Source: a virus. Taken from it: a stretch of DNA of 62,171 nucleotides. Positions 12,345-51,242 of the stretch are shown one piece after another (within the stretch, counting starts at the first letter, position 1; every line of letters starts with the position of its first letter). Below the pieces are notes generated by a model that ran no database searches, was not told where the DNA came from, and worked only from the letters and a program-made list of their open reading frames with translations. A program made the translations under genes and the position numbers. The stretch lies in IMG/VR virus record IMGVR_UViG_3300031772_000034, positions 1-62,171 of that record. One strand, written 5' to 3'.

Positions 12345-12659
12345 ATGTCTGAATATCGAAAACCATCATTACTTCGAATTGGGCGGAGTCCAGCAACAGA
12401 GAAGCTATACTCTCTAGAGGACGCGTTCCATTCGAAGTTCCGCAGCTGTGTTGAGGAATGGTGCCGCCTGATGAATATATCGGATCGAAATGATCTCTTT
12501 CGGATTGGGTATCCGCAGGGCGCGTATGACTTTCTCCATTCGATCGATCAGGCGGCCGCGCTTCTCAGTGCGCAGGCATTCCTGGAGTATTTCGGATATC
12601 AAGTTACTAAACCGAAGGAGACGGTAAATGTCGAAACCGAAAGCGGTAATCATCCTTAG
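12345..12659 (+). CDS. hypothetical protein, 104 aa
   Basis: Predicted helical; residues 25-90 form several amphipathic helices. Not recognised. Overlaps the start of queC by 32 bases, so it probably shares its transcript. Confidence 0.6.
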   Translation: MSEYRKPSLLRIGRSPATEKLYSLEDAFHSKFRSCVEEWCRLMNISDRNDLFRIGYPQGAYDFLHSIDQAAALLSAQAFLEYFGYQVTKPKETVNVETESGNHP

Positions 12660-13716
12660 TGGCGGGATGGATTCAGGGACACTTCTGGGTAAGCTTGTTT
12701 ACGAAAACCAATGTTCGGTTTACCCGATCACTTTCAATTACGGGCAACGCCATTCAAAGGAGATTGGCTGCGCGGAGGCATTATGCGACTGGTTTTCGCT
12801 CCGCCATAGGCATAAGGTTATCAACTTACCTGTGGCGGAGCTTCTTTCAAATTCCTCGTTGCTGGGGAGCGGCGACATTCCAGAGGGTAAATACGATGAT
12901 GAAGTCATGAAATCGACAGTTGTACCGAATCGTAACCCTATTATGGCTAACATTGCATTAGGGTACGCTATTAATATTGGGGCGAAAAGAATCGTTTTAG
13001 GCATTCATACAGGAGACCATCATATTTATGAGGATTGTAGAGAAACGGCGTTGGAGGCCCTAAACGATACCTCTTATATTTGGAGCAGCGATAACCGCGG
13101 ACGACTGTTGCCGTCTTATGTGAGGGCTTTTTTTGAAGCGGAAGGATGTTTTACGTCATCCCTATTTAAGCAGATTCAGTACCATCGAAAGACGAAAAAG
13201 CGGTTAGGCGTGAGCAAAGTCAAAAGGATACCTATTGTTATTATAAGCCAGAAGGATAAAACAATTTTAGAGGAAATTAAAAAGTTCTTTTATGGAAGGG
13301 GGTCGATTTATACCAACAAAAAAGGGTGTAGTGATTATAAACTTCAATGGCAAGATTGTAGGTTGATGATCGACCTAATGAACGGGATGTTTAAAACCGC
13401 TGCAAAAGAAGCGCAATTTATTTCTTGGTATCAAGAGTTCAAGGAGATGTTTGAGCGAGAGGTCGAGACGGATAATCCTGCGATAAAGGGAAAAACGTAT
13501 GAGATACAAAACATAAAGTTCATCGCCCCGTTTCTACATATGGATAAAGGCGATATCGCTTCCTATGGCGTCGCACATGGATTCCCATATCAATTCACGT
13601 GGACTTGTTATAAGGGAGGTCAAAAAGCCTGTGGGAAATGCGGCGCGTGCGTAGAGCGCCTAGAAGCATTTCAGAAAGCGAACATGAAAGATCCTCTTAT
13701 ATATATCGAGGAATAA
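12628..13716 (+). CDS. queC: QueC, 7-cyano-7-deazaguanine (preQ0) synthase, with LAGLIDADG insertion
   Basis: QueC converts 7-carboxy-7-deazaguanine to preQ0 using ATP and ammonia. The PP-loop SGGMDSGT is at residues 11-18, NYGQRH at 37-42, GDHHIYEDCR at 129-138, and the zinc cysteines at 327, 335, 338 and 341 (CYKGGQKACGKCGAC). Between about residues 149 and 290 an unrelated segment is inserted in frame; without it the protein would be about 220 residues, the usual QueC length. There is no fused amidotransferase domain, so the product should be preQ0 itself. RBS AAGGAGA; the start overlaps the previous gene. All visible catalytic and zinc motifs are intact; whether the unspliced protein folds is unknown. 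Confidence 0.9.
   Translation: MSKPKAVIILSGGMDSGTLLGKLVYENQCSVYPITFNYGQRHSKEIGCAEALCDWFSLRHRHKVINLPVAELLSNSSLLGSGDIPEGKYDDEVMKSTVVPNRNPIMANIALGYAINIGAKRIVLGIHTGDHHIYEDCRETALEALNDTSYIWSSDNRGRLLPSYVRAFFEAEGCFTSSLFKQIQYHRKTKKRLGVSKVKRIPIVIISQKDKTILEEIKKFFYGRGSIYTNKKGCSDYKLQWQDCRLMIDLMNGMFKTAAKEAQFISWYQEFKEMFEREVETDNPAIKGKTYEIQNIKFIAPFLHMDKGDIASYGVAHGFPYQFTWTCYKGGQKACGKCGACVERLEAFQKANMKDPLIYIEE
13072..13498 (+). mobile_element. LAGLIDADG homing-endonuclease domain inserted in queC
   Basis: Residues about 149-290 of the QueC frame carry YVRAFFEAEGCF (about 164-175), a LAGLIDADG motif. Then come a basic beta-hairpin, KTILEEIKKFFYGRGSIY, and WQDCRLMIDLMNGMF, all typical of a single-motif LAGLIDADG endonuclease. 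The frame is open across both junctions. I see no intein hallmarks: no Cys or Ser start block and no terminal His-Asn before Cys, Ser or Thr. At about 430 bp it is too short for a typical group I intron plus this ORF. It may be a degenerate intein, a free domain insertion, or a small intron read through in frame. Confidence 0.75.
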
Positions 13717-13720
13717 AATC

Positions 13721-13793
13721 GCCGGAGTAGCTCTAAGGGTAGAGCAGCGGTTTTGTAAACCGATGGTTGGGGGTTCAAGTCCTCTCTCCGGCT
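13721..13793 (+). tRNA. tRNA-Thr (anticodon TGT)
   Basis: 73 nt with acceptor GCCGGAG/CTCCGGC, D-stem GCTC/GAGC, anticodon loop TTTGTAA (TGT, reads ACA), and T-arm with loop TTCAAGT. CCA is not encoded. The first anticodon-stem pair is a mismatch, and the T-stem has G-U pairs. Thr(TGT) is not a queuosine tRNA, so it gives no support for a tRNA role of the que genes. Confidence 0.9.
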
Positions 13794-16766: not shown

Positions 16767-17037
16767 ACACTGCACAGAGAATGGGAGTAATACGCCCGAC
16801 TTTCTCCTAGCGGAATTCCTACTCAAGTGCTTGGAAGCATTTGATGCGGCGGTCATAGCAAGGGACAAATGGTATGGGGTTAAGCTCCATCCCGTTTCAT
16901 CGAAAACCTATAAGCGCGGTCTTATCGAGGGAGTTACCAGGTTCGCGTGGTGGAAGGACGGAACGCAATATGTCGGGACCTGCGGAACTACGTTAAAAGA
17001 TGCGATCGAAGAAATCGAAAAGGAGGTCAAATGGTAG
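16717..17037 (+). CDS. hypothetical protein, 106 aa
   Basis: Helical N-terminus and a beta-like, Trp- and Tyr-rich C-terminal half. Start 16717 follows AAAGGAGG. Overlaps queE by 7 bases, so it is cotranscribed with it. Confidence 0.6.
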   Translation: MSTREKLREELSVVLNKHCTENGSNTPDFLLAEFLLKCLEAFDAAVIARDKWYGVKLHPVSSKTYKRGLIEGVTRFAWWKDGTQYVGTCGTTLKDAIEEIEKEVKW

Positions 17038-17729
17038 AAGAGAAGCAACTACGAATCAGCGAATACTTCACGACGATTCAAGGCGAAGGACCTCGTGCGG
17101 GCGTTCCTTCTAACTTCATTCGTCTTTGGGGGTGTAATTTAAAGTGCACCTTCTGCGATACCAAATTCTCGCGAGAGACGAACGAAGATGGAAGAGTTAA
17201 CTGGACATGGGAGCTAGCGAGCTGTATTATAGATTGCTTCCGCCATCCGTGTTTCCTTCGCAATGATTTTGTGATCACTGGCGGAGAACCATTTCTTCAG
17301 TGGACAGCATTAGCTGATCTGGTCCTCAAGATCCCGAAAGATCGCGTTTATATTGAAACGAACGGGACTCTCTTCCATTATTTAGCACAGAAGGCGTTCC
17401 CGCAATATGTTGCTCGACGACTACAACGAAAAATCATTCCTATCGTTAGCCCGAAGGGACCTCTTCCTGAGGTTAACCGATGGACTTGGTTTGAGGAAGT
17501 ATACCTGAAAATCGTCCTTCCTCAGAAGGGCGCAGAAACGCTCAAAAAGATGTCCAAGTATATCCAGCCATTCCTACAAAGCCAAATCCCGCATGAGAAT
17601 ATTTACATAATGCCGAAAGGCGTTACTCCGGATGAGGTCGCGAAGTCTGTGAGTAAGATCATGCCAATTATTATGGACTACAACCTGAAACTGTCCCCGC
17701 GGCATCAGATCTCATATTACTTTAAATAG
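17031..17729 (+). CDS. queE: QueE, 7-carboxy-7-deazaguanine synthase
   Basis: Radical-SAM enzyme that ring-contracts 6-carboxytetrahydropterin to CDG, the QueC substrate. The iron-sulfur motif CNLKCTFC is at residues 35-42 (CX3CX2C). FTTIQGEGPRAG (13-24) is the family signature, and FVITGGEPFLQW (about 83-94) the SAM-binding GGEP block. At 232 residues it has normal QueE length. Start 17031 follows AAAGGAGG. Confidence 0.92.
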   Translation: MVEEKQLRISEYFTTIQGEGPRAGVPSNFIRLWGCNLKCTFCDTKFSRETNEDGRVNWTWELASCIIDCFRHPCFLRNDFVITGGEPFLQWTALADLVLKIPKDRVYIETNGTLFHYLAQKAFPQYVARRLQRKIIPIVSPKGPLPEVNRWTWFEEVYLKIVLPQKGAETLKKMSKYIQPFLQSQIPHENIYIMPKGVTPDEVAKSVSKIMPIIMDYNLKLSPRHQISYYFK

Positions 17730-19253: not shown

Positions 19254-19679
19254 ATGGCAACAATAATTTCAAGTGTATTTTCGATTTCTTCTGCACACCG
19301 GCTGCTCCATCACGAAGGGCTTTGCCACAATCTTCACGGACATAATTGGGAGGTCCGCGTCGACATTTACGGCGACCCGGATCGTGATACTGGTATGGTG
19401 ATCGACTTTCATCTCTTAAAAGAGGTAGTGAAGAATTACCTTCGCCCGTTCGATCATACTACGATCCTGAACACTGCAGATGAGGATACCATCCGAATGC
19501 TTCAGGTGGCCGGCTTTCCATTTATTATCGTCCATGGAGAGCCGACATGTGAAAATTTGGCAAAGCAGTTTTTCTGGGAGCTCCGCGATTTGATTAAAGC
19601 CGCTAATCCACTCGTTGATATCAAGCGAATTACCATCGAAGAGACCAAAGGGAATTTCGCAGTCTACGAGCGACCTTAA
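19254..19679 (+). CDS. queD: QueD, 6-carboxy-5,6,7,8-tetrahydropterin synthase
   Basis: Converts dihydroneopterin triphosphate to 6-carboxytetrahydropterin, the QueE substrate. Zinc ligands H15, H28 and H30 (SSAHRL, CHNLHGHN), catalytic C24, DFHLLK at 51-56, DHTTILN at 67-73, PTCENLA at 97-103 and the IEETKGN end block are all present. Length of 141 is normal. RBS TAGGAGG; stop overlaps the next start. Confidence 0.92.
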   Translation: MATIISSVFSISSAHRLLHHEGLCHNLHGHNWEVRVDIYGDPDRDTGMVIDFHLLKEVVKNYLRPFDHTTILNTADEDTIRMLQVAGFPFIIVHGEPTCENLAKQFFWELRDLIKAANPLVDIKRITIEETKGNFAVYERP

Positions 19680-36389: not shown

Positions 36390-38726
36390 ATGTTTCAAGT
36401 ATGCGAAAAATGCCCGGTAAGAGGCGTGAAGCAATTCGTTCCAAGTGAAATAAAACCTTCCGCGAAGTTCGTACTGATCGCGGAGGCACCGGGAGCGGAG
36501 GAAGTAATCGAACGAAGGCCGATGGTCGGCCCAAGTGGCAAGCTCAACGATTACCTGATGTATCAGGCGGGGCTATATCGGGAGGACGTCGATATTATTA
36601 ATGTCTGCTCCTGTTATCCAAAAGCGAGCCCTGATGAGATCGAGCTATTTTGTCGCCATCGATTATATGAGGAACTGAAACCCCTTGTTCACCTCCCGTG
36701 GATGTCTGTTGGTGAAGAGGCGATAAAGGCCATCCATGAGACAGATAAAAAGATAACGCCTCTTCGAGGTAAAATCCATCCCTGCGATAAAGTCGCCGAT
36801 ATTATCCCGGGAGCAGAAAAGAAGACTACATTCACGACATTTCATCCTGCGTATGTGCTCCGCTCAGGTGATCGACAGAAGCAAGACTCCAATCCGTCGA
36901 TCATGTTCGTCCTCGCGGAAGACTATAAAGTATTCGCGAGAACGCTTTCCGGCCGCCCCCTCATTCGGCATACTCCAGAGTTCACTATCGCGAAGACTGA
37001 GATGGAAATCAACGCCGCTTTATCTATTGCCCTTCGACAAGAGATCTTATTCTTAGACCTTGAAACAACGTCTCTTGATCGATATAAAGCGGATGTTATT
37101 CTCGCACAGTTTTCGTGCATGGACGGCACGTACGTGATGCAATTTTATGATAATCCGGCCATTTCTCCTGCGTTTAAATATTCGGTCCTACAGCAGCTGT
37201 TCGCATTAAATAATATTCCCAAAGTCTTTCAAAATGGAAAGTATGATATCGGCGTCCTTCGAGCGCAAGGGATTCAATGCAATAACTTCTATTTCGATTC
37301 CTTTGCGGCGCATTGCGTCCTGCGGGAGAACCTTGAAAGAAATCACGCTCTCGATGATATTGCATTGTGGTATTTGAATTATTCGGATTGGGATGTATCT
37401 GGGTTTATTTCTGGCGAGCAAACTTACGCGGATATTCCTCCGGCGGTTTTACTTCCATATTCCGCGACAGACGTGGACGTACTCCGAGAGGTATTCCCGA
37501 TTATGATGGAGGAACTCCATCAGCGCGGTATGCTCGATTACTTTATCAATCATGCGATGAAGTCTTTTCGATCCCTTATCGATATGGAGGAACGAGGGGT
37601 TCTTATTGATGTAAAGAAGGCGTCTGAGGTCGAAAGGGATTACGTGACCAAGATTGAATCGGAAAAAGTAAAGTTATTCCGAATCGCAGGTGAAGAGTTT
37701 AATCCAAATTCAACAAAGCAATTACGCACAATTTTGTTTGAAAAACTGAAATTAAAACCGATAAAACAAACGAAAAAGGGGAACCTAAGTACTGATGCGG
37801 AAGTCCTTGAACAACTCAATCATCCGATCGCTGATTCATTGATGTCGCTTCGTCGATTAAACAAAATTTGCAGCACATACTTATCTCGTGGGATGTTAAG
37901 CAATTTATATAAAAACCGCGTTCACTGTTCTTATAAGTTCGGTCCTGCAACTGGTCGGTTAGCATCAGAGGATCCGAATCTACAAAATATCCCTCGTCTT
38001 GGTGGTATTCGGCCGCTCTTTATTGCGCCGGAAGGATTCTGTTTCCTAAGCACTGACTATCGGCTAGCCGAGATGTTTGTTCTCGCATTCTTATCTGGCT
38101 CGGAACAGTTAGAGAGAGACTGCGAGAAGGATGTTCATCGGAAGGTTGCAGCGATGTTGTTTAAGATCTCCGAAGAGGCGGTTACATCAGAGCAGCGCGT
38201 TCTCGCAAAGTTTATCGACTTTGGGATCATATACGGTAGAACAGCCGAAAGCATTGCAGAAGAAAATAAAATCCCCGTCTCTGAGGCCCAAGTATTCATT
38301 GATATGTTCCTATCTCATTACGCAGAGGTGCGCCAGTTCCGAGAAGGGTTGATCGATCAAATTTTTAAGGTTGGATACCTGGAGAATCTATTTGGAAAGA
38401 AACGACATTTTCCTCCTCTTCAATTCTTCGACCACTATCTTCAGGAGGAATGGATTCGTGTCGGGTATAACTTCCCATGTCAATCTAACGTTGCGGAACT
38501 GACTCTTCGAACGGGTTATATGGTGACCGAAGAGTTAAAGAAGGCAAACGCGCAATCTGGAATGATCATGAACCTTCACGATGGGTTGGTTTTCGAAGTT
38601 CATTTAAGTGAACTGGATGCGGTGAAGTCTCTTGTGGAAGAGGTCGCAGCAATGCCACTACCGAAGATTGGCAAGAGCATCCCGTTTGAATTTAAACTGA
38701 GCGATTACTGGGAGGAAAAGGAATGA
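36390..38726 (+). CDS. family-4 UDG-like domain fused to 3'-5' exonuclease and family A DNA polymerase
   Basis: 778 residues. The N-terminal domain (1-180) has EAPGAEEVIE (32-41), HPAYVL (152-157) and four possible iron-sulfur cysteines (C5, C8, C73 or C75, C88) of family-4 uracil-DNA glycosylases. The exonuclease follows with LFLDLETTSL (D223, E225), FQNGKYDIG and YSATDVDVL. The polymerase has motif A DYRLAEMFV (D556, E561), motif B RVLAKFIDFGIIYG (R603, K607) and motif C HDG (H730, D731). The usual third residue of motif C, Glu, is Gly here. A UDG-PolA arrangement is known in SPO1-like phages. Likely the replicative polymerase. Confidence 0.88.
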   Translation: MFQVCEKCPVRGVKQFVPSEIKPSAKFVLIAEAPGAEEVIERRPMVGPSGKLNDYLMYQAGLYREDVDIINVCSCYPKASPDEIELFCRHRLYEELKPLVHLPWMSVGEEAIKAIHETDKKITPLRGKIHPCDKVADIIPGAEKKTTFTTFHPAYVLRSGDRQKQDSNPSIMFVLAEDYKVFARTLSGRPLIRHTPEFTIAKTEMEINAALSIALRQEILFLDLETTSLDRYKADVILAQFSCMDGTYVMQFYDNPAISPAFKYSVLQQLFALNNIPKVFQNGKYDIGVLRAQGIQCNNFYFDSFAAHCVLRENLERNHALDDIALWYLNYSDWDVSGFISGEQTYADIPPAVLLPYSATDVDVLREVFPIMMEELHQRGMLDYFINHAMKSFRSLIDMEERGVLIDVKKASEVERDYVTKIESEKVKLFRIAGEEFNPNSTKQLRTILFEKLKLKPIKQTKKGNLSTDAEVLEQLNHPIADSLMSLRRLNKICSTYLSRGMLSNLYKNRVHCSYKFGPATGRLASEDPNLQNIPRLGGIRPLFIAPEGFCFLSTDYRLAEMFVLAFLSGSEQLERDCEKDVHRKVAAMLFKISEEAVTSEQRVLAKFIDFGIIYGRTAESIAEENKIPVSEAQVFIDMFLSHYAEVRQFREGLIDQIFKVGYLENLFGKKRHFPPLQFFDHYLQEEWIRVGYNFPCQSNVAELTLRTGYMVTEELKKANAQSGMIMNLHDGLVFEVHLSELDAVKSLVEEVAAMPLPKIGKSIPFEFKLSDYWEEKE

Positions 38727-39468: not shown

Positions 39469-40184
39469 TGTTCAAGCCGGTAATTATCAACGCCAAGACC
39501 ATCAACGATGCCTGGCATCAGTTGGTCTTCCAGGTCGAGGAGAAGGGGCGTAAATACAAGATCACCCAGGGGAGCTTCGCTGGTCAGTTCCGGTATGAGT
39601 TCGAGTTCGTCTTGGTGGAGATCGAGCGTCCCTGGGAAGATATGGTTCCGGTGTTTCCGCCGGGGATTGTCTTGCCTCCGCCGACTACTGCGGAGAACAA
39701 CGAGCTTTACTTCGCCAATTATATTTTCAATCCCGATCTGGCGAAGGACGAACAATATACCTACGGGGAGCGGATTGCGGGGTTCAAGAGGGTAAATCGA
39801 GTGGACCCCCTGAATGATTCCGGTATTGAAAAAATTAATCAAATCGAGGAGGTGATCAAGAAATACAAAACCGGAGGATACGGAAATAACCAATGCACCA
39901 TCGAGATCGGGATGCCGTCCGATATTCTCTTGCCTGATCCTCCGTGTCTTCGGGTGATTGATACACGGATCGAGCAGGACATCCTTCATTTCTTTGTATA
40001 TTTCCGGAGCTGGGATCTCTGGGGAGGATTTCCGGTTAACCTAGGTGGAATCGAGTTGCTCAAGCAGTATATGGCCAAGGAGATCGGGGTGGGTAACGGC
40101 AAGATCATCGCCGCCAGCAAGGGGCTCCACATTTATGATCATGCGCTGAAATATGTGCGGATTAGAAGGGGTGAGGTAGCGTAA
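39468..40184 (+). CDS. thymidylate-synthase-family protein (archaeal-like ThyA), 238 aa
   Basis: YTYGERI (97-103), LLPDPPCLRVIDT (154-166; predicted nucleophile C160), VYFRSWDLWGGFPVNLGGI (167-185) and SKGLHIYD (about 217-224) are ThyA-family blocks, closest in style to the short archaeal enzymes. The Asn in FPVN (N181) corresponds to the residue that selects dUMP; dCMP hydroxymethylases have Asp there. So it should methylate or hydroxymethylate dUMP. It sits between the Tad2-like gene and dpdA. RBS AAAGGAG. Confidence 0.75.
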   Translation: MFKPVIINAKTINDAWHQLVFQVEEKGRKYKITQGSFAGQFRYEFEFVLVEIERPWEDMVPVFPPGIVLPPPTTAENNELYFANYIFNPDLAKDEQYTYGERIAGFKRVNRVDPLNDSGIEKINQIEEVIKKYKTGGYGNNQCTIEIGMPSDILLPDPPCLRVIDTRIEQDILHFFVYFRSWDLWGGFPVNLGGIELLKQYMAKEIGVGNGKIIAASKGLHIYDHALKYVRIRRGEVA

Positions 40185-40957
40185 TGGATCTTTTTCATGT
40201 CGTGCCGTATTGGTATTGGGAAGAGAATAAGGGGTGTAGAAAACTCGCGGAGGCATCGGAGATCAGGAAACATTCTGCAGTGGCGCTACATTTAATTGGA
40301 AGCGAGTGGATCCTCGATAAGTCGCCATTCGTTCCAGGTGTTTCGCTTAATATGTTTTACACTCTTATCGAGAGGTACTGTCCTGCGTATATTATCATTC
40401 CCGATGCACTTCAAGATCATGCGAAAACTTGTGATTTGTTTTTCAATTTCTTTCGCTCCTTTGATCCGAAAAAGTGCCGTGTCCGACCTATCTTCATTCC
40501 GATGATCCAAGGGAAAACCCATTCTCGACGCTTCGATATGATTCAATTTTTCATTCGGAATCTCAGCGATAAACTCGACCATATTCGTTTAGGAATCCCG
40601 AAGTATATGGTAGATATCAAGAAAGCTACCCCAAAGGAAATGGCGACCACGAGAATCAAGTTCGTCGCAGAGGTTCGTACTGCCCATCCAAGCTTTGAGA
40701 TTCATTGCGCCGGCGCGAATAGCGTCGCAGAAATCAACGCTCTTCGAGGTCTTGGTGTAACATCTCTCGATACATCCATCGGTGTAAAGATCATTCAAGA
40801 ATTATGTATTGAGGGGAAATACTGGACTACCAAAAACATTCCCAGGGAGAAAATCATGTCATTCGAGCCGTGTGTCAAAATGAAAAATAGTTTATCATTA
40901 CCTCAGCAATACGTAGTTCAACTCTCAAATATCATTCAACTACTGGAGGTTATATAA
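40184..40957 (+). CDS. dpdA: DpdA-like DNA 7-deazaguanine transglycosylase
   Basis: TGT-superfamily TIM barrel of 257 residues. AVALHLIGSEW (32-42), IIPDALQDHAKT (71-82; predicted catalytic D74), FIPMIQGKTH (104-113), EIHCAGANS (172-180) and LRGLGVTSLDTS (187-198; D196) follow the order of phage DpdA proteins, which exchange guanine in DNA for preQ0 or a derivative. The four-cysteine zinc site of tRNA TGTs is not apparent. Coupled by TAATG to the ThyA-like gene. Together with FolE2, QueD, QueE and QueC it completes a DNA-modification pathway. Confidence 0.78.
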   Translation: MDLFHVVPYWYWEENKGCRKLAEASEIRKHSAVALHLIGSEWILDKSPFVPGVSLNMFYTLIERYCPAYIIIPDALQDHAKTCDLFFNFFRSFDPKKCRVRPIFIPMIQGKTHSRRFDMIQFFIRNLSDKLDHIRLGIPKYMVDIKKATPKEMATTRIKFVAEVRTAHPSFEIHCAGANSVAEINALRGLGVTSLDTSIGVKIIQELCIEGKYWTTKNIPREKIMSFEPCVKMKNSLSLPQQYVVQLSNIIQLLEVI

Positions 40958-46670: not shown

Positions 46671-49600
46671 ATGAAAAAAATGCGCTCCCATTATGGGCGC
46701 AGTATGTTTAAATCCCCTCCCGTCCGCCGGTTACTTATCGATCGTGAAAAATTAGTTAATGATCTTCGAAAGCGCTCTTGGCCTGCTTGGCAGCAGATGA
46801 CCAAAGATATCGGGATCGCCTTGGATGGATTCAAGAGAGATTTCGAAAGCGCGAATAGATTCGATCAAGTTGATAATGCGGTATCTACCTTTACCGGCTA
46901 CGTTAATTCAACAGCTTCAGATGTCTATGATCGCGCACTTGTTAGTGGCACCCGCTATGCAGAGAGCTATTACGGGAAAATTCCCTGGGATTATAATTCA
47001 CTTCGGAATGCTTCTCTTAAAACTCAGGTGGAAGTCGCTCGGTGGAACAGGGAGAAGCTTTTCAACCAATTTAACAATATAGTCCAGACACAATTTCACG
47101 AGAGCATGACGCCTGAAGAAACGGAACAGGCGACAGCTCGAACTAAACACTCCCTTCTTTCAACAGCATTTCAATTTTTAATGTACACTCAGATAGTCGG
47201 GGATCTTCAACATATTCCCCTTTTCTTAGGTGCGTCTGCGTTTAAAGCTCAAACAGGTGAAGAGCCTCTTTACGAATGGCTTACCACAAGCGGCGATCCG
47301 TGCAATGGCTGCCTCGCGATGGAAAGAATGGGTCCGATGACAAGAGCGGAATTCGCGGGGATTTATCCAAAAACTTGTGATCATGAGTGCCATTCGAATT
47401 GCCACTGTACTTTAGGACTTGTTAATCGGAAGAATACCGTCGTAGATGTTTTAGTCAACCGAATGGTTAGTAGGCAGGCACCTCTTCCAGCGGTAGACTT
47501 TTCGATGGATGTTTTACGTACTAATTACGTAAACGCTGCAATCCCAGAGTTCTTTTCTTTAGTTGAGAAATCCCCTTCGATGCAGCGGTGGGAAAATTTC
47601 CTTTCCCTCGGATCTGTTTCAGAGGGCGCTAAATTTGATGTTGCGTTTGAATCGGGTGTTGGATACAAAATAACCGTCCCAGCGGCTGTAACTTCCCAAC
47701 AGAAGCAATCTCTTATTCTTCGAGGCATAGCAAAGGTACAGAATAATAATTTACACGCTGCTTATGGCGATAGCTTTACAAATTACGCGGAAGATTTTTA
47801 TTCCTATGTTGTACAGGACTTTTCGAATACTATCGCTGGAGAGCAGGGCGTCACAGCCGCCATTCGAAAACAGCTTGTTACAAATCCCAATGCAGCCTTT
47901 AACAGATTGAAAGAACTTGGCATTTATCCAAAAACATATGCCGTTGATGTAGATTTTCTTTATAATCACGATCTCAATGGGCTAACAGAATATTATATTA
48001 AATCATTCTACTCCAATTATAATAGCTTCCGGTCTCTTCCTGGCGCAGCGCAGTTTGAATCTTTTTATAGGGACTTTGCGTTCTCGCTACCAGAACATAA
48101 ACAATACATTACGAGAGAATTCCATGATCTTCCGAAGTTCTGGCATCGGAACGCGACGCCAGAAACATTAACAAAGAAATTTTTACTTCGTCCTGACGGT
48201 ACTCCTGGGCCTAGCGCATTATATGGACAGGCAAACGCCGCTGAGTGGGTAAAGGAGCTTTTAACTGCATATCCTTCATTAAGCAGAAAAGAATTTTTTG
48301 AGGGTCTCGACTACATCGCCACATACGGTGAATATGACGGTGTTTGGACAAGTAAGGAGTTATCAGGGCTGGTTGAAAAAACGCTTCTCAGTTCATCTCT
48401 TCCTAAGAAGCTTCGAGATGAAGCGATGTCTCGTGTAGTAGAAATCTACGGCGCTGATGTCGCTAAGGACGTCACGATTGATAGTATGATATTATCTCGA
48501 CCAAATGCGCGTATATTCGCTCATGAGCTTGGCCACCATGTCTGGGGCACTCAATTATGGTCTCCATTGGCGAGCGCAGGATTCCAAATTCATAAGGCCG
48601 TGGGATATCAGGAGTTTTATGCGTTATGGAAATCCCATATTGCGGTAGCGTCAACGGCTTTTAAGGATGCGCTCATTCAAGCGAGCACGAAAGAATTAGA
48701 CCTATGGAAGTGGTGGCAGTGGGCTTACACTACTGCTTTGAAGTACGCTGAAAAGGGGGAGGTCGGTAAAATTCTCCCGAAAGTGATTGACGCCCTTCCG
48801 AATGAATTACGGACGGCCGTTACGTTATATTCGAAGATGCCGATGGAAAAACTTCTGCAATTCCACGAATGGTTCGCAGAAATGTTTTCGCTTATTAATA
48901 TCGCACCTGGTGCGATTAACGCCACCGCGATGCCAATCGCAGATGAATTTCAGTATCTAATTCGAAAGAATATTTTAGGGTTAAAGACAGCGATTCCTTT
49001 AACTGGCCCCGCGGCTTCTGTTGACGTGAGAATCCTTACCGCCATGAAAGAATTTGATCCCGAGCTTACTTCTGAACAGGCTATTCAAGAGCTCACGAAG
49101 ACGCTTGAGAAAACGAAGAAGCCCGCTGCAACAGCCACTGGTGTTGTAAAGAAACGTAGCCTAATTGAATACGACTCTGAAAGCTCCCTCCCCGAGTTAT
49201 CTCGACCATGGAAATCAGACTTCCCTACAGATGCTGAAATAACTAAATATCAGGCTCCTTGGGAAGCCATAAAAGTAAAATCTATTATGGAGGAAACGGG
49301 CTTTAATAAGGAAAAAGCCACTCGTATTTCTGCGGCTATTGATGACTTTACAACGGGCGGAGATTGGGCAGGTATTCGAGACGTTCAAATGACTCTGGAT
49401 AAAGCGAACCCACTTTTCACCATTGCTGAGGATCTCGAAGAATACATTGCAGTAGCACCGAAATGGACTGGCCCGATATATCGTGGATTATCATTTGATT
49501 CAGAGCAAACGTGGAATCGACTTCGTCGATTGAAACCTGGCGAATCATTTGATATGCTCGGATTGTCGTCCTGGTCTTTAGATGAAGGTGCCGCTGAATT

Positions 49601-51242
49601 ATTTATGGGTGAAGGGAAGTATAGCGTTCTTATTTCATGCAAGAACCCTGATACTGCGGCACTCGTATCTCATTACATAATCGATCCTGGGGCGAAGGAA
49701 GTCATCGTGTCTGGTAAATCCGCTTTTAAGATAAAGCATCTAAAGGTAGACACTGTGGCTAAACAGATTCTAGTTGATGTTGAAGAGGAGACAACTGATC
49801 GCGCTCTTGTAGCGTCTTCCTTTAAAGCAGCTACCAAAGAAGGCGAAGTTGTTAAAGGTATTCCGAAGACGACGTCCAAGATGAAGAAACCTCTTCCTGA
49901 AGTGGAGAGCGAGTATAAGACCGGAGATTGGGAGCAGAAGTTTACCGAAGCTCGCGTTAATATTGTAATGGAAGATACTGGTCTTCCTCGAATAAATGCG
50001 GAGGGAGCTGTCCTAGCAATCGACCAGTATTCAGAGTCCTATTATGCGAGTATTCGCCAGGCACAACGAATGGGTCGATTAGATACTCCTTCTGGTAAGC
50101 TTGCGACTGCGATTGAAGATTATATTGAAGCTGCGCCTAAGTGGGTTGGCGATCCTATTTATCGAAAGATGTCCTGGATAGAATCTGATCAGTGGAATAA
50201 ATACATTGCGTTAAAGGAGGGTGAGAAGTTCGATATGATGGGGCTATCCTCCTGGACGACTGATATGGACTGGCTTAAAAAATGGCAAGAGTTACCGCCT
50301 TATAAAGGATACTTTGTGTGTAAGAAGCCTTTAACTGCAACGCCCATCCCACAACTTTCTCGACGTCCGAATGAGCGCGAACTCCTTATGTCGGGGAATT
50401 CTACGTTTAAGGTCGTATCGATGAAGGTGGATCGCGCGAAGAGAACCTTTACTATGGAAGTCGAAGAACTTCCTCGGACTGCAAAAGTATTAACGCCCGC
50501 ACAGTTTAGTGCGGCACAAACTAAAGGAGTCCCGAAGGTTCAATATTTAACCGAACAAAAGAAATTAAACGCCTCGCTTCCTACAGTTGTACAAGAAGCC
50601 GGCCGCGAAGTTTATGAGAAAGTAGGCTATGAAAAATGGACTGAGGCCCGCATTTTAGATGTCATGGCAGATACGGGATATACCCGTGAGAAGGCGACCG
50701 AATTTATAGACTCATATATAGAGTATTCAATGTATAGCGATTTTGCGGCTGCAATTAAAAAGGCACAAAGACAAAAAATCTTTAATCATGCTTTTTCTCA
50801 AGCAGAAGCAATAGAGGGATATATTGCTGATGGCCCGAAATGGCGTGGTGGGCCTATTTATAGAAAATTATCATTCACCGATCGTTGGGCTAATAAAGCA
50901 CTCTCTTCTGTTAAATCGGGGCAATCGTTAGATTTACAGGGACTTACTTCTTGGTCCTCAAGTAAACAATTTGCTAAAGAATTTCAAGGACCCGCAAACT
51001 TTGAATATTTACTCGTATGCGAAAAGCCTATTACCGCAACTCCGGTGGCCCATCTTTCGCTCTTTCAACAAGAGGAGCTTTTAATGTCTGGGTATTCAAC
51101 GGCCCGGGTCAATAAGGTTTATAAGGAGGGGAAACTTACTATAATCGAAGTTGAAGAAGTCCCGAGTGTCGGACTTTCTCAAAAACTGTTAGATAGCGAA
51201 ATGCAGAAGAAGGCCGAAGAAAAAGCGGCAAAGGAGGTGTAA
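46671..51242 (+). CDS. MuF-type head protein with HExxH motif and three ADP-ribosyltransferase-like repeats, 1523 aa
   Basis: Residues 1-260 resemble Mu F-type head morphogenesis proteins, ending in a Cys/His cluster (CNGC near 211; CDHECHSNCHC near 237). A middle region (about 270-830) has HELGHH near 617, a zinc-metallopeptidase-like motif. Residues about 860-1500 hold three homologous units of about 180-230 residues. Each has IYR[GK], then L[ST]SW[ST], then EL[LV]MSG-type blocks, the R-S-E order of ARTs. The ExE position reads AxE, ExE and QxE in repeats 1, 2 and 3. It is probably packaged or ejected with the DNA (inference from MuF toxins). The RBS is weak. Confidence 0.75.
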   Translation: MKKMRSHYGRSMFKSPPVRRLLIDREKLVNDLRKRSWPAWQQMTKDIGIALDGFKRDFESANRFDQVDNAVSTFTGYVNSTASDVYDRALVSGTRYAESYYGKIPWDYNSLRNASLKTQVEVARWNREKLFNQFNNIVQTQFHESMTPEETEQATARTKHSLLSTAFQFLMYTQIVGDLQHIPLFLGASAFKAQTGEEPLYEWLTTSGDPCNGCLAMERMGPMTRAEFAGIYPKTCDHECHSNCHCTLGLVNRKNTVVDVLVNRMVSRQAPLPAVDFSMDVLRTNYVNAAIPEFFSLVEKSPSMQRWENFLSLGSVSEGAKFDVAFESGVGYKITVPAAVTSQQKQSLILRGIAKVQNNNLHAAYGDSFTNYAEDFYSYVVQDFSNTIAGEQGVTAAIRKQLVTNPNAAFNRLKELGIYPKTYAVDVDFLYNHDLNGLTEYYIKSFYSNYNSFRSLPGAAQFESFYRDFAFSLPEHKQYITREFHDLPKFWHRNATPETLTKKFLLRPDGTPGPSALYGQANAAEWVKELLTAYPSLSRKEFFEGLDYIATYGEYDGVWTSKELSGLVEKTLLSSSLPKKLRDEAMSRVVEIYGADVAKDVTIDSMILSRPNARIFAHELGHHVWGTQLWSPLASAGFQIHKAVGYQEFYALWKSHIAVASTAFKDALIQASTKELDLWKWWQWAYTTALKYAEKGEVGKILPKVIDALPNELRTAVTLYSKMPMEKLLQFHEWFAEMFSLINIAPGAINATAMPIADEFQYLIRKNILGLKTAIPLTGPAASVDVRILTAMKEFDPELTSEQAIQELTKTLEKTKKPAATATGVVKKRSLIEYDSESSLPELSRPWKSDFPTDAEITKYQAPWEAIKVKSIMEETGFNKEKATRISAAIDDFTTGGDWAGIRDVQMTLDKANPLFTIAEDLEEYIAVAPKWTGPIYRGLSFDSEQTWNRLRRLKPGESFDMLGLSSWSLDEGAAELFMGEGKYSVLISCKNPDTAALVSHYIIDPGAKEVIVSGKSAFKIKHLKVDTVAKQILVDVEEETTDRALVASSFKAATKEGEVVKGIPKTTSKMKKPLPEVESEYKTGDWEQKFTEARVNIVMEDTGLPRINAEGAVLAIDQYSESYYASIRQAQRMGRLDTPSGKLATAIEDYIEAAPKWVGDPIYRKMSWIESDQWNKYIALKEGEKFDMMGLSSWTTDMDWLKKWQELPPYKGYFVCKKPLTATPIPQLSRRPNERELLMSGNSTFKVVSMKVDRAKRTFTMEVEELPRTAKVLTPAQFSAAQTKGVPKVQYLTEQKKLNASLPTVVQEAGREVYEKVGYEKWTEARILDVMADTGYTREKATEFIDSYIEYSMYSDFAAAIKKAQRQKIFNHAFSQAEAIEGYIADGPKWRGGPIYRKLSFTDRWANKALSSVKSGQSLDLQGLTSWSSSKQFAKEFQGPANFEYLLVCEKPITATPVAHLSLFQQEELLMSGYSTARVNKVYKEGKLTIIEVEEVPSVGLSQKLLDSEMQKKAEEKAAKEV

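Follow-up and report, generated by a model that had tools for sequence, protein, structure and literature searches.

A LAGLIDADG_1 domain inserted in frame into a viral queC gene, with no detectable intein or intron

The queC locus of the viral contig

The window analysed here is the whole of the viral IMG/VR record IMGVR_UViG_3300031772_000034, 62,171 bases in length. As shown in Table 1, the only queC gene of this contig has an open frame of 362 residues, in which the QueC profile PF06508 matches in two stretches (E=1.2e-50; 172.3 bits against a cut-off of 22), and the LAGLIDADG_1 profile PF00961 matches between them. TIGR00364, another QueC model, gave 159.4 bits against a cut-off of 150.3. 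Thus, a sequence-only reading of this DNA was correct in placing a LAGLIDADG domain in frame inside queC. The queE-like and queD-like genes lie on the same strand as queC, no more than 7 kb downstream. For the former, the best NCBIfam QueE model reached E=7.9e-18, which is under the curated cut-offs, while TIGR03367 matched the latter at E=3.2e-24, slightly under its cut-off.

Table 1. Features of the queC locus and of the pathway genes downstream (positions in the window)
Feature	Position	Strand	Basis
queC::LAGLIDADG ORF, 362 aa	12628..13716	+	translation and profile matches
Shine-Dalgarno-like AGGAGA, 6 nt 5′ of the queC ATG	12616..12621	+	read from the sequence
QueC N-terminal part, residues 1-153; PP-loop SGGMDS (12658-12675), VVPNRN and D-CR motifs	12628..13086	+	
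In-frame insert, 139 aa / 417 nt	13087..13503	+	excess over the modal 27-residue loop; borders +/- ~6 codons
LAGLIDADG_1 domain, residues 168-269, motif AFFEAEGCF	13129..13434	+	profile, AF2, Foldseek
E172, catalytic-acid position	13141-13143	+	domain alignment
K260, lysine invariant in the LAGLIDADG family alignment	13405-13407	+	domain alignment
QueC C-terminal part; zinc cysteines C327, C335, C338, C341 (13606-13650)	13504..13713	+	
queE-like radical SAM gene, same pathway	16947..17729	+	NCBIfam QueE models, Pfam Radical_SAM
queD-like gene, same pathway	19254..19679	+	Pfam PTPS E=2.8e-31

The QueC motifs are intact on both sides of the insert, with the P-loop in the N-terminal part and the four zinc cysteines in the C-terminal part. 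Residues S11, G12, G13, D15, S16, P100, R102, N103, D136, C137, and R138, which are invariant across 39 QueC sequences, are all kept, and the same is true of the whole PP-loop SGGxDS (S11-S16) and of C327, C335, C338, and C341. When the full-length protein was modelled by AF2 with the insert present, the pLDDT was mostly 90-98 for the N-terminal QueC part and mostly 94-98 for the C-terminal part, and the best structural matches of the model were the QueC crystal structures 2pg3 and 3bl5. The insert itself was not modelled in this run because no other row of the alignment covers it. QueC and the LAGLIDADG domain were modelled separately, since a combined alignment misplaced the domain rows. The QueC part of the fusion is predicted to work as a preQ0 synthase.

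A tRNA gene (13721..13793, plus strand; anticodon TGT for Thr, by eye) begins 5 nt past the queC stop codon. It was detected by Rfam RF00005 with 60.3 bits and was not called by ARAGORN. This gene is treated here as a neighbour of queC. Elsewhere in the contig, the gene at 36390-38726 encodes a DNA polymerase A with a 3′-5′ exonuclease and a fused N-terminal domain of the uracil-DNA-glycosylase superfamily (PF03167, E=1.2e-13). The gene at 46671-51242 encodes a minor-head-like protein of 1523 residues that weakly matches ADP-ribosyltransferase families, perhaps within repeated C-terminal segments. A 257-residue product (40184-40957), whose gene directly follows a thymidylate-synthase-like gene, was taken by eye for a TGT/DpdA-type transglycosylase; it matched no family and no phage record, and it was therefore not used as evidence.

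The insert, its site, and its LAGLIDADG domain

In order to delimit the insert, 126 distinct QueC sequences including that of the window were collected from annotated phage proteins and viral contigs, and the spacing was measured between the conserved DCR and the AP ahead of the last core strand. This spacing is 25-34 residues in 125 of the 126 sequences, with a mode of 27, and 166 residues in the window alone. The excess over the mode is 139 residues, located between approximately residues 153 and 293, and the variability of the linker leaves the borders uncertain by about 6 codons. The alignment with phage QueC proteins had been proposed in the sequence-only reading for setting the borders; its estimate of about 140 residues inserted at about residue 149 agrees with the result to within a few residues, and the segment is not a normal part of the QueC relatives, the outcome by which that reading would have been disproved.

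The open frame across the insert is not due to chance, since only 3 of 20,000 dinucleotide shuffles of the 417 nt remained open; the five other reading frames have 5-13 stops each. The GC content of the insert is 0.40, locally down to 0.34, whereas the flanks have 0.45 and the contig 0.46, and about 4% of the contig stretches of this size are equally low in GC. The positions beside the insert have an entropy of 2.1-2.7 bits, while the QueC mean is 1.62 and the nearby H-GDH-YEDCR motif has 0.30. The insertion site is thus a poorly conserved linker of QueC, variable in length, and such a linker could be a place where an unremoved domain is tolerated. Inteins and introns usually occupy conserved motifs, unlike this linker. 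Homing endonucleases likewise usually target conserved sequence, and therefore the variable site argues against a broad homing target.

The PF00961 match covers residues 168-269 (E=3.5e-6; 28.3 bits against a cut-off of 23.1), and the insert alone gave 30.7 bits. Among solved structures, the insert alone matched I-PanMI (E=5.2e-8) and also I-SmaMI. The AF2 model of the domain has the alpha-beta-beta-alpha-beta-beta-alpha order at low confidence (mean pLDDT 59); in a Foldseek search with this low-confidence model, LAGLIDADG endonucleases ranked at the top with probabilities up to 1.00 and a best E of 6.3e-3, none being below 0.001. When the LAGLIDADG motif was compared between the window and 22 relatives, E172 was found to be invariant in the 23 aligned sequences, and the following Gly-Cys-Phe and K260 were also kept. 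In contrast, the Gly of the motif helix that is nearly invariant in the 22 relatives is Ala167 here, preceded by Arg166; the motif reads VRAFFEAEG against xVGFxDGEG in the relatives, so that the small residue (Gly) for helix packing is missing. Ala167 and Arg166 may weaken dimer packing, and the endonuclease could be decaying. The missing Gly bears more on activity than on descent.

Where do the relatives of this domain occur? A query with the LAGLIDADG alignment found 26 genome loci, mainly of CPR bacteria, plus some of Acidimicrobiia and other Actinomycetota, and the best bacterial relatives of the insert reached E-values down to 3e-8 by tblastn. All of the four bacterial loci that were checked sit in or beside 23S rRNA genes. 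Four of the five matches of the alignment in the viral collection were set aside because of their fungal mitochondrial look. By sequence, the domain of the insert is related to the single-domain LAGLIDADG_1 proteins of bacterial rRNA introns. Close relatives of the whole QueC-LAGLIDADG protein were not found in IMG/VR, and exact peptide patterns of the insert revealed no near relatives in IMG/VR or in the genome collection. No near relative was found in annotated phages, and the plasmid search gave a single match without weight (E=0.8). Two DNA-pattern scans for a DCR motif followed by a LAGLIDADG motif were too loose, with chance matches among those listed, and none of the frames at the listed loci matched the insert. 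Two large viral contigs (L373 and L374) that seemed to have a QueC with a long insert, in a match of 1254 nt, turned out to have an ordinary QueC behind a C-terminal QueC-like gene. In L373 (1171-2763), a full QueC is immediately preceded by the QueC-like C-terminal protein, which has a CxxC zinc motif, and this tandem was seen in both contigs.

Possible fates of the insert: splicing, homing, and decay

The sequence-only reading had offered a fused enzyme, a minimal intein, and an in-frame intron as the possible outcomes, and only the fusion is favoured by the present results. It had also rightly pointed out that intein hallmarks are absent and that the insert is too short for a usual intron plus ORF. 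The idea of a new kind of minimal intein, excising itself from the protein, draws on the in-frame position and the endonuclease domain of the insert, both familiar from inteins, and on a Ser at the left border (S153/S154). Nevertheless, it is scarcely credible: at least 102 of the 139 residues belong to the LAGLIDADG domain, which leaves no room for a Hint or other splicing domain, and no intein/Hint profile matched in Pfam (E≤1) or NCBIfam (E≤0.01). The right border, YEIQN-IKFIAP, has no Asn-Cys/Ser/Thr as read from the sequence, and the site is the variable linker instead of a conserved motif. A very small intron, in which the ribozyme core would share sequence with the LAGLIDADG frame and the 417 nt would leave the mRNA, might be suggested by the four bacterial relatives in or beside LSU rRNA genes, the home of such introns. 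Size is the main argument that makes it very unlikely, because about 111 nt of the insert lie outside the domain, whereas known group I intron cores need roughly 200 nt. In addition, the frame continues through both borders, and weak support comes from RNA folding, which is ordinary for the insert region as compared with shuffles (z=-0.41). No Rfam intron was found at the insert at E≤10, a weak test since a control 23S gene that is clearly interrupted (L352) likewise gave none. Because inspection by eye showed no Shine-Dalgarno-like sequence ahead of an internal start, the LAGLIDADG domain is most simply translated within QueC, and there is no stop codon between the domain and the C-terminal part of QueC. 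Indirectly, the sequence thus points to an insert that is most likely unspliced.

The explanation that probably holds is an unspliced in-frame insertion of LAGLIDADG_1, giving one QueC-endonuclease fusion that, if active, homes into empty queC genes. A single-domain LAGLIDADG_1 coding sequence would sit in frame in the variable linker of queC without any splicing device, and the gene would be translated from the own start codon of queC as one protein of 362 residues. The protein is predicted to be a folded QueC, active as a preQ0 synthase, with the LAGLIDADG domain bulging from the linker ahead of the last core strand. The insertion may be tolerated because the frame is kept and the site is outside the catalytic motifs. 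Single-domain members of the LAGLIDADG family cut DNA as pairs, and two of the fusion proteins would have to pair their LAGLIDADG domains for cleavage. The fusion, if active, would cut at the insertion site in any uninterrupted queC that a co-infecting phage brings along, and the insert would be copied in during repair of the cut. Homing activity of the fusion is plausible, while decay is a serious alternative. Against this explanation, the insert is known from one contig, and neither the insert nor this queC had a near relative in the collections searched, so that homing and persistence cannot be seen.

The alternative of decay overlaps with this explanation and differs from it in the homing step only: the domain would be unspliced and in frame, QueC would work, and the LAGLIDADG part would be a decayed or domesticated endonuclease that does not cut or only binds DNA. 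This is quite possible, while falling somewhat short of probable. It would account for the change from the helix Gly to Ala with an Arg before it, as compared with the 22 relatives, and for the variable insertion site; in the parallel case of phage methylases, the divergence of the LAGLIDADG domain mostly tracks the host gene (PMC9957025). On the other hand, the domain retains its catalytic-acid position as well as the invariant lysine, and the low GC content suggests a fairly recent arrival. The open frame is uninformative on decay because QueC itself needs it. That the contig is an assembly chimera, or the gene a dead queC allele, is most improbable. A single contig without close relatives would fit such an origin, but misassembly is unlikely because both joins are in frame. 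Moreover, the insert has no stops, all QueC motifs are intact, the LAGLIDADG domain is complete, and queD-like and queE-like genes are nearby.

In a further reading, the fusion would be bifunctional and selected as a unit, modifying its own DNA and cutting the queC of rivals that lack the insert, with the pairing of QueC holding the endonuclease halves together. This seems unlikely. A model for it is the intron-borne HNH homing endonuclease of phage PhiPA3, which harms a competing phage (PMC11620839). If it were true, a DNA-modification enzyme would double as a weapon against co-infecting relatives.

Relation to known LAGLIDADG insertions

No published link between LAGLIDADG and queC in this arrangement was found in the literature. 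The QueC of the window has all invariant residues in common with phage QueC proteins of the preQ0 DNA-modification pathway and is up to about 50% identical to its relatives in IMG/VR, and none of the 125 other phage QueC sequences compared has an insert. Like the insert, the LAGLIDADG_1 proteins of 23S rRNA insertions in CPR bacteria and Acidimicrobiia (e.g. I-ShaI, PMC11270868) have the catalytic acid, the EGCF, and the lysine, and their N-terminal stretch is similar (SSDN-RGRL against ADNQQGRL). They differ in that the insertions around them measure about 640 nt or more and in that they have their own stop codon, whereas the queC frame continues into the host protein. The I-PanMI, I-SmaMI, and I-OnuI group, the best sequence matches of solved structure and among the best by fold, consists of two-domain monomers, while the queC insert is one domain that would have to pair. 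By the account cited in PMC5626475, LAGLIDADG-rps3 fusions occur in Ophiostoma mitochondria; there, too, an endonuclease is fused to the frame of a host protein, but the fusion is mitochondrial and lies inside an rnl group I intron. In Mycobacterium phage BaboJay (L365:1297-3126), two genes both named RNA ligase flank a LAGLIDADG-like frame that bears the annotation HNH endonuclease, and the pair is perhaps one gene split by the insertion.

The usual view is that a homing endonuclease spares its host gene only with the help of an intron or an intein. The arrangement closest to that of queC was described by Gosselin et al. in 2023: DNA methylases of actinophages carry a LAGLIDADG domain that does not belong to an intein; it measures 139 residues in Akhila_67, and the structure predicted for Taj_79 shows it as a separate domain (PMC9957025). 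In the record of phage Taj, N6_N4_Mtase was found in Taj_79 together with LAGLIDADG_1 at residues 63-160 (E=6.9e-16). The same domain is present in 14 mycobacteriophage records and in the methylases of three Rhodobacter phages (37% identity). The methylases of Taj_79, Wee_78, Akhila_67, and Kersh have, like queC, an in-frame non-intein single LAGLIDADG_1 of about 139 residues in a phage DNA-modification enzyme that is still recognisable by its own domain; the window fits this architecture, with both parts of the host enzyme recognisable. The sequence-only reading had called homing into a DNA-modification gene striking, which is softened by this parallel. The methylase cases differ in their host, an N6/N4 methylase instead of QueC, in the insertion site, and in their spread over 17 phage records, as compared with one contig for queC. 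The methylase domain and the queC insert are only 17% identical, so that the queC case looks independent. Since the methylase precedent exists, queC is a new host gene for a kind of in-frame, spliceless LAGLIDADG insertion that is known and rare. This second case seems to be independent and concerns another DNA-modification enzyme of phages, with an insert of nearly equal size; it suggests that a tolerant loop may be all that a small single-domain LAGLIDADG protein needs in order to persist in an enzyme. The compact fusion also lends itself to testing whether the two activities exist side by side and whether modification genes are targeted preferentially.
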